Of a stretch of 64,000 bases of DNA, positions 55,814 to 63,926 are shown piece after piece. Where the stretch lies: positions 620,001 to 684,000 of the forward strand of contig CP003083.1 in assembly GCA_000306725.1 (NCBI GenBank), given 5' to 3'. The position numbers and the translations under genes were made by a program. The number at the start of each line of letters is the position of its first letter. Position 1 is the stretch's first letter. The notes under the pieces were generated by a model that ran no database searches, was not told where the DNA came from, and was given only the letters and a program-made list of their open reading frames with translations. The stretch is from Methanolobus psychrophilus R15. Lineage in GTDB: Archaea; Halobacteriota; Methanosarcinia; Methanosarcinales; Methanosarcinaceae.

Positions 55814-55960
55814 GTGAACTACCACCCTATGAATAGGGTGGCTTCCTGCTTCATCATCGAATCCAACGACTCAATTCCACAGGCTTGAACTGTAGTTCCT
55901 ACAGCACGATTTAGAATATTGATAGCTGCATTGTGGTCACGGTCAAGAACTAATCCACAG
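55814..55960 (-). ncRNA. Candidate omega RNA (right-end guide RNA scaffold)
   Basis: By analogy with other IS605 elements the 3' part of tnpB and the right end form the scaffold. The terminal hairpin at 55822-55841 overlaps the tnpB stop. The guide would be the host DNA read just beyond, starting about CAGTCTACAATGAG on the minus strand. The 5' boundary given is approximate. Confidence 0.4.
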
Positions 55961-56988
55961 TATGGACAATTATGTACCCTTACTGCAAGTGGTTTCTCGA
56001 CTTTTTGACCACATTTGCTACAAAGTTGTGATGTATTATATGGATTGACTAATTCTACAAACTTACCAGCTTCTTCCGCTTTGTATTTTGTAATCTGAAT
56101 TAGATTACTCCATGATGCATCATGTATTGATTTTGAAAGTCTTGAATTTTTAACCATATTCATTACATTCAGGTCTTCAAAAGCTATGAAATCGTAAGCA
56201 TTAATGAGTTCCCTACTTATTTTATGGTTAAAATCATTTCTTTGATTGCGTATTTTTCGATGCAATCTGTTTACCTTGTCACATTGTTTTTTCCAATTAT
56301 TAGAAAACTTCCTTTTTTTGCTAAGATTACGTTGTTGTTTCTTTAATTCATCCTCTGTATTGCGATAATAATTTGGAGAATCTATTTGAGTACCATCACT
56401 TAATGTAACCAGAGAATTAAGTCCTACATCAATACCAACAAAAGTAACAGGTTCTACAGGTGTTGTATTATTCTCAATGACTACAGAGAATGTAATATAC
56501 CATTGTTTACCATCTCTGCGGATAGTACACGTCTTGATTTTACCTTCAATTTCTCTATGTAGAACTATCTTAATTTCTCCAATCTTTGATAACTTCAACT
56601 TTTTTCCAGAAATGCTAAAACCAGATTGTGGATAGGTAAAATTATTATATCTGTTCTTACCTTTGAAACGAGGATAACCTGCTTTGGCACCTCCATTCTT
56701 ACATCGTCTAAAAAAGTTATCAAAGGATTTGCCTAATCTCCTGATTACATCCTGTTTAACCTGAGAATGAACATCGATATCAAATTCAAGATATTGAACC
56801 TGATATAATTGTTCCATTGTTGATAATCCCTGATTACATCGGTCGTATGCGTTTCTACGGTCTGCAAGAAATTCGTTATAGATATATCTACAAACATCAA
56901 GTGTCTTATTCAAAGTCACTTCCTGTTGTTTTGCAGGATATAATCTAAACTTATATGATTTCTGCATTAGATACCTATAGGTCAGCAA
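55819..56988 (-). CDS. tnpB: TnpB (RNA-guided nuclease of IS605 family)
   Basis: 389 residues. The N-terminal part begins QKSYKFRLYPAKQQEVTLNK, as usual for OrfB. The RuvC-like core has GIDVGLNSLVTLSDG (first Asp), FEDLNVMNM (Glu) and DRDHNAAINI (last Asp). The zinc ribbon CSKCG...CPYCG lies between them. All catalytic residues are present. ATG near 56967 (MQKSYKF) is a likely alternative start. TnpB proteins cut DNA guided by an RNA made from the right end of the element. Its stop lies beside the right-end hairpin. Confidence 0.93.
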   Translation of the reverse strand: MLTYRYLMQKSYKFRLYPAKQQEVTLNKTLDVCRYIYNEFLADRRNAYDRCNQGLSTMEQLYQVQYLEFDIDVHSQVKQDVIRRLGKSFDNFFRRCKNGGAKAGYPRFKGKNRYNNFTYPQSGFSISGKKLKLSKIGEIKIVLHREIEGKIKTCTIRRDGKQWYITFSVVIENNTTPVEPVTFVGIDVGLNSLVTLSDGTQIDSPNYYRNTEDELKKQQRNLSKKRKFSNNWKKQCDKVNRLHRKIRNQRNDFNHKISRELINAYDFIAFEDLNVMNMVKNSRLSKSIHDASWSNLIQITKYKAEEAGKFVELVNPYNTSQLCSKCGQKVEKPLAVRVHNCPYCGLVLDRDHNAAINILNRAVGTTVQACGIESLDSMMKQEATLFIGW

Positions 56989-59729: not shown

Positions 59730-62700
59730 TTGAAAAACCAATTTATAGTCTTAAAAATATTTTCTATTTCCCTGATTGCCTTTTGCATTTTGAACACGGC
59801 AATCTATGCAGTATCTGCAGAAGCACAAATGGCAGCTCTAAATCCGGATTTCATTGAATATATCTCAAGTCTGGAAAATGATCAGAGCAAGATCTCTACT
59901 ACAGGTTTAAACGCACAATCCTCAATAGAAGGTTACTATCCCCTGGGTGCAATACCTGGCCCCCTTGATCTCAGCCACTTATCCGCCCTCCAGAGTTCAG
60001 TTCCTGGTCTACTGGCTCTTCAGTCCACTTTACCATCAAGTTTTGACCTCAGAGAGCAGAATAACGTTACTTCTGTTAAAGACCAGGGATATGTGGGTGC
60101 ATGCTGGGCTTTTGCTTCAATAGCTTCCCTTGAATCTAATCAATTAAAAGCTACAGGAATAGAGTGGAACTTTTCTGAAAACCATATGAAGAACTTACTG
60201 AACGACTGGGATGGCAGTTCTTACGAAAATCGATTTGATTATGATGATGGCGGAGACGCTGTGATGGTCCTCGCTTATCTAACCCGGGGTGATGGACCTG
60301 TATTAGAAAGTGAAGACCCTTATATTGATCACTATAACCAGTCTCCCGATGGCCTGGAAAAAGCTATAACATTTCAAAATGGTTATTATCTTCCTCTTCG
60401 AACTGGCCCTCTTGACAACAACATTCTCAAACGAGCCATCTATGATCATGGTGCGGTTTATAGTGGCATGTATTGGTCCTATAATGCCACTTATTATGGG
60501 ACTTCATATACAACATATTACAATCCCGTATTGGACTTTGATGGCGGTCATGCAATTACCCTGATAGGATGGAACGACACTTTTTCAAGGTCCAACTTTA
60601 ACGGATCATCCATTCCCGCTGGTGACGGTGCATTTATCGCCAAGAACAGCTGGAGTTCTGAATGGGGAGTAAATGATGGATACTTCTATATCTCCTACTA
60701 TGATCAGTATTTTGGGAAAATGGAAAATGCTCTTTTCCTGCGGGGGGCTTCTGATAATATCTACAGCAATATTTATCAATATGACATGCTCGGCCACACC
60801 AGGAGTTTCGGCTATGGAGAGCCGTTTGCATGGGCAGCTAATGTATTTGAGTCTGAAGCAGATGAAGTGATAACAGCGATCGGATTCTATACAACTGCAC
60901 CAAATACCGATTATGAGATATCTGTTTACCGGGACCTGGAAAACCCAACCATATCGCCGTTAAGCAATAAGATTCATTCGATAACATATGCTGGAACGAA
61001 AGAATTCACCGGCTACCATACGATTGAAATTGAGCCCATCATGATACCGGAAAATACAACATTTTCAATCGCCATTAACTACACACACGACTCATATCTA
61101 TTTCCAATACCTGTAGAAAGTGCTATTTCTGGTTTTAGCAGTCGAGCGACCTCAAATACCGGAGAGAGCTTTGCCAGTGCCGATGGGATATTATGGGAAG
61201 ACTTCGGGGAGAGTAATGGCAGTATATGTATCAAGGCATTTACCGTAGAGCCTACTCTTGATAGGATATGGGAGGAGGGGATGCCCAATCCTTATATTTG
61301 GGATTCGACCAGCTTTTCAGGGTTCCATTATGATATCAGAACGGGCACAAACACAGAAAAAATGATAATGACCATTCCCTATACTGGCAGGATAGTAAAC
61401 AGTGGAGACATTATATACCAGACAATACCTGCGGAAACATGCTTCGAATATGACAGCTGGGGCAGGTATGAAGTTATCGGGCTTATGGGTGAAAAATATT
61501 TTACGGGCTATACTGCAAACACTTCCAGTTCGATCTCATTGAGCGGTCAGGAGGAAATATTCTCATCGGGAATTGTATCAAAGGTACTAATTGATAGAAA
61601 CGAGTCGGAGCTCATCTATGCTGATTCATCGCTGGCCCTTGGGGATGGGTATGAGCTTAATATCAGACAGATAGATACAGAAGATAACAAATTGTGGATT
61701 ATGTTGTCAAAGGAAGGCAATGAGATTGATGATGCGATAATTAATGACAATTCAGATTTCATATATACCGCAGACCTTTGGGACATAGATGATGTTACAC
61801 TTATCGCGGTCCGTTTTGGTAACATAAGTAATACAGAAGGCATCCCCGGTGCTTTCGTAACAGGTGTATTCCAGATATCCGAAAATACCCTTGCACTGGA
61901 AAACGGTACAAGGCATGGAAAAATGGAGATCACATCTTTAAGTGAAAAACACGTTGAAATGAAAAACTGGGAATGTTTTGCACTTGACCGGGGAGAGACC
62001 ATCCCTATTATGGGAACTATCGGTTTTGTGATTGCAGACACCAGTACCCTCAGATTTGCGCCGGCGACCAGTAATCCCGTTTCCGGAAAGTACAAGATAC
62101 GTGGCACTCTTGCTGAGGACGAGAACATGACATGGACTCCCTCAAACTTTGAAGGGTTTAAGTATAATATTTATTCAGACAATATCGACTCTGAACGGCT
62201 GTTAATTCTAGCTGACCTTACGAAAGAACAAACAATTGTTCCTGCAGGAAGTCTCCTCTATGAGACAAAGATGCAAACATCATACTGTGGAGATGCGATC
62301 CAATTCCAAAAGCTTGGATTGTTTGGGGAAGAATATATTCCACTAACAGACACCAGTCCAGACAAATTGGCACCACTCCTGATAAATGATGGTAATACAT
62401 ATATTATGGAATCAAACCAGTCATTAATATTGGCAAATGGTTATTTTCTCCTTCCATATAAAATCGATATCGAAGGAAGTAAGGTATGGCTGAAACTTTA
62501 CCAGGATGGAGAGTTCATAGACGATGAAATAATAGACACCAGCGGAACCTGGACATATCTACTGGATGGCATTCTCGGTGAAGATGATGTCGAGGTACTG
62601 AAGATACATGTTGGTAGCATCTCATCTGTAACGGACTCTATTAGCATTAAGGGTGTCTGGATGATAGACTGGGAAAATACATTTGAAATTATGCCAGATG

Positions 62701-63926
62701 ATGAATTTGGAATCCTTAAAGTAGAACCAATTAGTAATAACATGCTGCTCTTCACGAGCATACAGGATATTGACCTACGAGATAATACCGGCAGCAAGCA
62801 AATTGCAGGCGATCTGTATTTCCAGGTAACAAACGACCCCGGACAACTCAGGTACTATCCTTTTATAATCCGGGATATTGTACCTGATCACGTCCTGAAC
62901 AGAACCATCAGTATCCAGGAAATAAGCGGTCTGACACAGCCGATTACAAGTGCTTTTCCTGTATCCTCGATATGTGAGAACAGCCAATATACCGGCAATG
63001 TTACCTGGTCTCCTGCACATTCACCATTCCAAAGCAAAACCGTTTACACTGCAACCGTTTCGCTGACCCAGAAAGAAGGATTTGTATCAGAAGGGGTGAC
63101 TGCAGACTTCTTTACAGTTGCCGGTGCAGATACGGTGAGCAATGCCGCCAATTCCACGATTGTTACTGTAGTGTTCCCGGTAACTCTGCTCAATGACCAG
63201 ACTCCGGTATACTCGGGTGGCTCAGGTGGAAGTGGTGGCTCAAGTGGAGGCGGAGGAGGAATGACCAATGAACCCCATGAAAATATAAACGTTGTTGAAG
63301 TGAGATCAGAATCTGTTATGAGTGGCGTTCCTGTTAATTATCAGCTTGAAAAAGAGGATAACATTCTCAGTGAGATCTCCTTCACTGCCCTGCAGAACCT
63401 TGCCACATTGAAACTAAGGGTCGAGATCTTGCATGAAAGGTCCCAATTCGTGAATGCAGACCCTGAAGGAAAAGTTTACAAGCATGTAAACATCTGGTTT
63501 AATAGAGCCGGCTTTGCAGAAGGCCGACATTTCAAGGATGCTAAGGTCTCCTTTAAAGTCGAGAAAAAATGGATGGAAGAAAATGGCATCGACGTGAATT
63601 CTATAAGGTTGAACAGATATAACAATGGCAAATGGGGTCAACTGAATACAGTAATGGCTGATGCAGATATTCTCTACTATTATTTTGTTGCAGATGTTCC
63701 CGGATTCTCCCCCTTCTCTATAACAGGAGAAACAACAAAAGTCTCTGATAGTAACACAGACAAGACGATAATAGATGCTTCACTGAAAGGTCCAGACCAC
63801 ATTAAAACAAAGGAAGAGTCTTCCAGCAAAGATAAAAGGTTGATGCTATTGTATGGATCTTTTTTCGTGCTTTTAATAGCCGCAGCAGGCTATGGCCTGT
63901 TAGTAATGAGCAGGAAGAAGAGATAA
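59730..63926 (+). CDS. Papain-like surface protease with two S-layer domains and PGF-pre-PGF domain
   Basis: 1398 residues from TTG 59730 (AAAGGTG upstream). The signal peptide is at ~5-30. The C1A protease at ~100-330 has Gln119, Cys125 in GACWAFAS, His274 in GGHAITLIGW and Asn306 in KNSWSSEWG, so the active site is complete. A lectin-like domain at ~331-505 often follows such proteases. Next come two Methanosarcina S-layer (DUF1608) domains at ~513-780 and ~788-1050. Shared signs are FSGFHYDI/FEGFKYNI, YEVIGLMGEKY, GYELNIRQIDTEDNKLWI, IDDAI/IDDEI and a closing DPGQLRYYPF. Then follow an Ig-like segment (~1080-1150), a Gly/Ser hinge (~1162-1177), a PGF-pre-PGF domain (~1185-1335) and a membrane span at ~1370-1393. 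Likely an S-layer-integrated processing enzyme. Confidence 0.88.
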   Translation: MKNQFIVLKIFSISLIAFCILNTAIYAVSAEAQMAALNPDFIEYISSLENDQSKISTTGLNAQSSIEGYYPLGAIPGPLDLSHLSALQSSVPGLLALQSTLPSSFDLREQNNVTSVKDQGYVGACWAFASIASLESNQLKATGIEWNFSENHMKNLLNDWDGSSYENRFDYDDGGDAVMVLAYLTRGDGPVLESEDPYIDHYNQSPDGLEKAITFQNGYYLPLRTGPLDNNILKRAIYDHGAVYSGMYWSYNATYYGTSYTTYYNPVLDFDGGHAITLIGWNDTFSRSNFNGSSIPAGDGAFIAKNSWSSEWGVNDGYFYISYYDQYFGKMENALFLRGASDNIYSNIYQYDMLGHTRSFGYGEPFAWAANVFESEADEVITAIGFYTTAPNTDYEISVYRDLENPTISPLSNKIHSITYAGTKEFTGYHTIEIEPIMIPENTTFSIAINYTHDSYLFPIPVESAISGFSSRATSNTGESFASADGILWEDFGESNGSICIKAFTVEPTLDRIWEEGMPNPYIWDSTSFSGFHYDIRTGTNTEKMIMTIPYTGRIVNSGDIIYQTIPAETCFEYDSWGRYEVIGLMGEKYFTGYTANTSSSISLSGQEEIFSSGIVSKVLIDRNESELIYADSSLALGDGYELNIRQIDTEDNKLWIMLSKEGNEIDDAIINDNSDFIYTADLWDIDDVTLIAVRFGNISNTEGIPGAFVTGVFQISENTLALENGTRHGKMEITSLSEKHVEMKNWECFALDRGETIPIMGTIGFVIADTSTLRFAPATSNPVSGKYKIRGTLAEDENMTWTPSNFEGFKYNIYSDNIDSERLLILADLTKEQTIVPAGSLLYETKMQTSYCGDAIQFQKLGLFGEEYIPLTDTSPDKLAPLLINDGNTYIMESNQSLILANGYFLLPYKIDIEGSKVWLKLYQDGEFIDDEIIDTSGTWTYLLDGILGEDDVEVLKIHVGSISSVTDSISIKGVWMIDWENTFEIMPDDEFGILKVEPISNNMLLFTSIQDIDLRDNTGSKQIAGDLYFQVTNDPGQLRYYPFIIRDIVPDHVLNRTISIQEISGLTQPITSAFPVSSICENSQYTGNVTWSPAHSPFQSKTVYTATVSLTQKEGFVSEGVTADFFTVAGADTVSNAANSTIVTVVFPVTLLNDQTPVYSGGSGGSGGSSGGGGGMTNEPHENINVVEVRSESVMSGVPVNYQLEKEDNILSEISFTALQNLATLKLRVEILHERSQFVNADPEGKVYKHVNIWFNRAGFAEGRHFKDAKVSFKVEKKWMEENGIDVNSIRLNRYNNGKWGQLNTVMADADILYYYFVADVPGFSPFSITGETTKVSDSNTDKTIIDASLKGPDHIKTKEESSSKDKRLMLLYGSFFVLLIAAAGYGLLVMSRKKR

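Follow-up and report, generated by a model that had tools for sequence, protein, structure and literature searches.

A predicted surface protease of Methanolobus psychrophilus that joins a Cwp84-type head to two S-layer (DUF1608) domains

The window analysed here is a stretch of 64,000 nucleotides from Methanolobus psychrophilus R15 (contig CP003083.1, positions 620,001 to 684,000). Close to its end lies a single uninterrupted open reading frame (ORF) with a TTG start, which encodes a protein of 1398 amino acids (aa). The stretch AAAAGGTG stands 5' of the TTG, both in the window gene and in its copy in Methanolobus sp. isolate Soudan_28. The third-position GC content of the gene is 0.41, versus 0.50-0.63 in four compared genes of the window. 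Table 1 lists the modules of the protein; this domain set reads most naturally as a surface protease.

Table 1. Modules of the 1398-aa protein (window positions) and genes with a related tail (locus positions). TM, transmembrane.
Feature	Position	Strand	Evidence and remarks
Whole gene, 1398 aa	59730..63926	+	Signal, propeptide, papain-like protease, lectin-like, DUF1608 x2, Gly-rich linker, PGF-pre-PGF, TM; ORF, domain scans, same order in ortholog
Hydrophobic signal-like N-terminus, residues 1-30	59730..59819	+	Hydropathy only (windows 2-31)
Candidate propeptide, residues 31-100	59820..60029	+	Boundary inferred from position between signal and Peptidase_C1, as in Cwp84 (PMC4089489, sections used here)
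Peptidase_C1 domain, residues 101-324	60030..60701	+	E 1.7e-21; Q119, C125, H274, N306
Lectin_like domain PF18560, residues 348-505	60771..61244	+	Pfam E 2.9e-41
DUF1608 domain SL1, residues 513-780, non-lattice type	61266..62069	+	E 1.7e-72; trees
DUF1608 domain SL2, residues 786-1055, divergent	62085..62894	+	E 2.8e-45; sequence nearest lattice type
Linker with Gly/Ser-rich run, residues 1056-1180	62895..63269	+	Differs most between the two orthologs: 82% identity, 6 gapped positions
PGF-pre-PGF domain TIGR04213, residues 1181-1333	63270..63728	+	NCBIfam E 7.9e-47
C-terminal TM segment, then SRKKR	63837..63923	+	Hydropathy (windows 1370-1395); no PGF motif directly before TM
NosD-PKD + DUF1608 pair + PGF-pre-PGF genes	L144:2578-6822, L146:5066-9289	-	Other cargo, same chassis

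A preliminary description of this gene had proposed that one polypeptide combines an intact papain-like domain, a lectin-like domain, two S-layer domains and a PGF-pre-PGF/membrane end. Pfam and NCBIfam matches and hydropathy bear out this architecture. The catalytic domain scores 77.8 bits against PF00112, the papain family C1A peptidase (curated cut-off 20.7). A Pfam scan of the whole protein finds two stretches of PF07752 (E 8.2e-115), and the NCBIfam scan matches TIGR01567 twice. In the profile search that had been set as the test of the S-layer domains, residues 513-780 score 244 bits and residues 786-1055 score 155 bits against PF07752, with a cut-off of 30.

The protease also looks intact at the level of single residues, as had been proposed. 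The oxyanion glutamine Q119 and the residues C125, H274 and N306 are present in all 48 protease-lectin heads that were aligned from the loci collected. E463 of the lectin-like domain is kept in the same 48 heads; aligned by eye with a structure sequence, it falls on the calcium-binding Glu448 of Cwp84, a protease of Clostridioides difficile (PDB 4ci7, 4d59). By sequence, Cwp84 (4ci7) is also the best solved-structure relative of residues 105-485 (E 2.1e-23). Neither of the two outcomes set beforehand as overturning the preliminary description, S-layer repeats below significance or protease residues lost on realignment, has arisen.

The likeness to Cwp84 extends to the whole layout. In both proteins a C1A domain is followed by a lectin-like domain (PF18560 in the window protein) and then by domains common to the host's own surface-layer proteins. 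According to the sections of PMC4089489 used here, the C1A and lectin-like arrangement was described in Cwp84, which takes part in C. difficile S-layer maturation, and a few archaea have it as well; the M. mazei homolog NP_632235 is named. The position of the candidate propeptide agrees as well (same source), and Gln, Cys and His of the catalytic site align. The papain-type Asn, in contrast, is N306 in the window protein and is aligned with Ser in Cwp84. The anchors are unrelated: Cwp84 has PF04122 repeats, whereas the window protein has DUF1608, PGF-pre-PGF and a TM segment, and the Pfam scan gives it no PF04122 cell-wall repeat with E <= 1. Cleavage of the S-layer precursor is a further mark of the Cwp84 type; in the window protein it would be a putative activity. 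We classify the head, on domain order and alignment, as Cwp84 type (C1A plus lectin-like), a parallel absent from the preliminary description.

The nearest kin of the head is closer to home. Its sister (support 99/94) consists of a 1360-aa NosD protease, at 30 kb in the same genome, and the Soudan_28 counterpart of that protease. Within the genome, the head is 56% identical to the 1360-aa protein and 41% to a 1107-aa protein. These two and M. mazei NP_632235 belong to the C1-lectin proteases of the Methanosarcinaceae, which share a homologous head and often the PGF-pre-PGF end. In the other scanned heads of this type, PKD, NosD or Ig domains come next.

In a genome-contig scan the window gene has one relative, in Soudan_28 (G049). 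The two proteins are 89% identical and carry the same Pfam domains in the same order. Between the genes dS is 0.184 and dN/dS is 0.27 overall. By region, dN/dS is 0.135 for C1, 0.212 for the lectin-like domain, 0.309 for SL1, 0.267 for SL2, 0.385 for the linker and 0.301 for PGF-pre-PGF; purifying selection is strongest on the catalytic domain. Hence, two genes joined by an assembly or sequencing error are practically excluded as an explanation, because a second genome holds the same fusion without a stop and under these constraints.

The DUF1608 pair departs from what a lattice protein would be expected to carry. Three trees were built: from 50 of 59 extracted DUF1608 domains, from 36 chosen domains, and from 61 domains, some earlier and some newly fetched. 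Domains that were short (under 235 aa) or divergent were left out before all three. SL1 falls into a clade of first domains of 1299-aa/MA0068-like proteins (98/98 and 97/93; within a 93/92 group in the third tree). Besides the ortholog, its best matches are first domains of paralogs of about 1160-1300 aa (42-48% identity). SL2 lies outside this non-lattice clade and is 39% identical to lattice-type domains of a 666-aa protein of Soudan_28 and a 925-aa protein of the own genome. Its closest solved relative is the S-layer tile protein MA0829 (3u2g; sequence match, E 9.2e-43); SL1 alone matches the same structure with E 1.5e-19. A single clade of SL1 and SL2 is rejected (p-AU 8.85e-06, 36-domain tree), which rules out a simple tandem or internal duplication as the origin of the pair. 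A derivation of SL2 from the NosD-PKD proteins with a DUF1608 pair and PGF-pre-PGF is likewise ruled out (p-AU 0.00085, 61-domain tree). SL2 sits on a long branch and joins a domain of a 1510-aa protein of G020 with only 83/39 (50-domain tree) and 92/58 (61-domain tree), so it cannot be placed firmly inside the lattice clade. In the 36-domain tree, with the long rows removed, SL2 groups with the non-lattice rows, apart from the remaining lattice-side ones, at only 56/68.

The trees therefore point to a heterotypic pair, with SL1 from the non-lattice clade and SL2 nearest the lattice type. Mixed pairs also occur elsewhere, in the 1510-aa protein of G020 and in proteins of about 2060 aa in G043, G057 and G059. 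By contrast, MA0829-like domains and those of the 925-aa and 666-aa proteins form one clade. Hence, lattice-type proteins are made of a single domain type.

The 925-aa protein deserves a note of its own. Its gene (L071:6531-9305, minus strand; own genome at about 1,468,530-1,471,304) is a lattice-type S-layer gene of the MA0829-like clade and has three DUF1608 domains in tandem, versus two in the 666-aa Soudan_28 counterpart. Over 776 bp, the second and third repeats share 99.4% identity. If this is not an assembly error, the product would be a three-tile S-layer protein.

The MA0829/SlmA1 protein of M. acetivorans shares with the window protein two DUF1608 domains, a secretion signal and a C-terminal TM segment. 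In the MA0829-like protein the two domains are of one type, and the end is of another kind. In a tile protein both domains lie in the lattice clade and a tether of about 60 aa with a TM segment follows the pair directly; in the window protein SL1 lies in the non-lattice clade, an N-terminal protease precedes the pair, and a 125-aa linker plus PGF-pre-PGF separate it from the TM segment.

The preliminary description had also taken lattice formation as the normal role of tandem DUF1608 pairs. This is too strong, since most DUF1608 genes are minor paralogs. According to the sections of PMC3361143 used here, M. acetivorans has ten DUF1608 genes, one of which is the major S-layer gene; transcripts of MA3556 and MA0068 amount to 3.5% and 1.8% of those of the dominant S-layer gene, and both proteins were recovered by Concanavalin A. 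The own genome holds 17 PF07752 stretches, spread over several genes.

The C-terminal end suggests a permanent anchor. When C-termini are compared, a PGF-CTERM-like motif closes the lattice-type proteins, the MA0829-like one among them. Substrates of this PGF-CTERM/archaeosortase route carry a PGF motif before the C-terminal TM segment. The own genome encodes archaeosortase A (E 2.1e-80). In the window protein a PGF motif does not directly precede the TM segment, and the protein is therefore expected to stay TM-anchored.

The same tail serves other heads. Proteins of 1415 aa (G061) and 1408 aa (G059) place NosD-PKD heads before DUF1608-DUF1608-PGF-pre-PGF and a C-terminal end, with 35% identity to residues 493-1048 of the window protein. 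They differ in their beta-helix/PKD head and in a second DUF1608 domain of another type (the p-AU of 0.00085 given above). The comparison shows the tail to be a reusable chassis, and each of the three parts (the head, the DUF1608 pair and PGF-pre-PGF) is a module used elsewhere too.

The combination with a protease is rare. In a whole-protein search of 111 family genomes, a full-length match appears only in the own genome (a single contig of 3,072,769 bases) and in Soudan_28, among the matches listed. A query of the lectin-like domain plus the first DUF1608 domain was run against 111 family, 185 order and 392 phylum genomes; among the matches listed, only the same two genomes have matches that span it. 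Up to 15, 9 and 4 candidates per genome were scored in the 111-, 185- and 392-genome searches, the last at E <= 1e-62, where 53 of the 392 genomes had any match; a divergent fusion could escape such searches. The genus-level check for Lectin_like is complete: all 33 matches, found in 16 of 27 genomes, were inspected, and two carry DUF1608 while the other 31 do not; three of the 33 end at contig edges (G048:C5 and two in G047). Four chosen matches that start well before the domain boundary (in G054, G007, G064 and G048; others starting at query positions 132-154 were left out) show neither a protease nor a lectin-like domain in the part inspected. A match in G074 over residues 29-702 belongs to a C1-lectin-PKD-NosD protein. 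Full-text literature searches returned no description of a protease-DUF1608 fusion by title or abstract, and the words 'protease', 'peptidase' and 'papain' never occur in the main text of PMC3361143. Judged from these genomes, the domain combination is genuine and rare, present in one genus and built from known families.

To explain this architecture, we propose a secreted, C-terminally membrane-anchored C1A protease with a Cwp84-type head that is seated at the level of the S-layer by its DUF1608 pair. We give this reading a probability of about 0.55. It rests on the domain matches, the catalytic residues kept in 48 of 48 heads, the Soudan_28 ortholog, purifying selection, the sister relation of the head to the 1360-aa protease, the reused tail, the Cwp84 parallel and a nucleotide-sugar cluster downstream. 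The part with good support is an active, TM-anchored surface protease; its seating in the S-layer is plausible, and a protease built into the S-layer or docking on it, as the preliminary description suggested, is possible. The protein would be exported as a zymogen and then lose its propeptide. The DUF1608 pair would hold it beside or between the lattice tiles, with the protease-lectin head facing outward. The head could then trim proteins of the surface or neighbouring ones, perhaps glycoproteins that the lectin-like domain recognises. Such a protein would have arisen by module exchange, in which a head common to a second Methanolobus protease was joined to a DUF1608 pair and a PGF-pre-PGF end like those of other family surface proteins.

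Several observations weigh against the proposed seating and function. SL1 and SL2 sit on long branches of about one change per site or more in three trees, so lattice contacts may have been lost. In other family proteases PKD, NosD or Ig domains take the slot of the pair; a plain stalk could serve there. The close genome G056 shares flanking genes at 89-99% identity and contains no Lectin_like match at all, so the function would be dispensable. An AlphaFold2 model of residues 31-1055, computed from a two-sequence alignment (window and Soudan_28), reached a pLDDT of 25.9 and a pTM of 0.19 and was not used.

Some of these points lead directly to another reading, in which the pair acts only as a stiff spacer, raising the protease through or above the S-layer with no contact to the lattice; in related proteases PKD, NosD or Ig domains may play this part from the same position. 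The two DUF1608 carriers among 33 Lectin_like matches and the long branches fit such a stalk; we nevertheless consider it less likely, given two domains that are full-length, high-scoring and under purifying selection. The enzyme might instead work independently of the S-layer, hydrolysing external proteins and peptides or the proteins of neighbours at the surface, for nutrition or defence. A patchy spread across the genus and a gene neighbourhood that varies between close genomes fit such an accessory trait. It too is less likely, as the protein has its own TM anchor instead of being released and is joined to S-layer-type domains.

The parallel with Cwp84 invites a third role, the cleavage of the cell's own major or minor DUF1608 protein. 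Head and attachment by coat-protein domains are as in Cwp84. We nevertheless rate a maturation protease as quite improbable, because loss of the signal peptide and glycosylation are the reported processing of the major Methanosarcina S-layer proteins (PMC3361143, sections used here) and nearly all searched genomes with DUF1608 proteins lack the fusion, among the matches listed. A bolder extension of the seated protease also seems unlikely: the mixed pair, of minor-protein and near-lattice type, would serve as the adaptor through which an active Cwp84-like protease is set into the lattice to mature or remodel surface glycoproteins, and archaea and Clostridia would have mounted the same head independently on unrelated S-layer domains.

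Should the pair dock in the lattice, the enzyme would form part of an archaeal S-layer, and DUF1608 would be a reusable mount for enzymes. The Cwp84 parallel, if true, would mean that the same protease-lectin head occurs in two domains of life, attached each time by the coat-protein domains of its host. Because the pair is mixed by nature, it also permits a direct test of which of the two domain types contacts the lattice.

Upstream of the protease gene lies a TrkH-type transporter gene. Downstream follows a convergent gene of probable SPFH type (its HflK/HflC matches are below cut-off), and beyond it the nucleotide-sugar cluster. This encodes acetyltransferase, aminotransferase, UDP-GlcNAc 3-dehydrogenase (an equivalog match, 515.6 bits against a cut-off of 450), nucleotide-sugar dehydrogenase, VanZ-family, epimerase-like and MraY-like proteins. 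The downstream gene order is kept in Soudan_28, and such a neighbourhood fits a cell-surface region.

Elsewhere, the 1107-aa protease gene (C1-lectin-PKD-NosD-PGF-pre-PGF; L065:2798-6118, minus strand) lies divergently beside a 1438-aa DUF1608 and PGF-pre-PGF gene (L065:7624-11937, plus strand). A recurrent pairing of protease and DUF1608 genes was dropped, because Soudan_28 genes of corresponding length are on different contigs. The SPFH/stomatin-like gene beside the window protease (L068:94-915, minus strand) is a second copy, 93% identical to one at 1.80 Mb (G000:C1:1800626-1801396), and Soudan_28 and G056 likewise carry two copies. Upstream in the window, positions 55819-56988 (minus strand) resemble, by eye, an IS605-type OrfB/TnpB gene. 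Next to the Soudan_28 copy of the protease gene stands a gene with 37% identity to this one, and G056 has OrfB_IS605 fragments on the far side of its SPFH gene.

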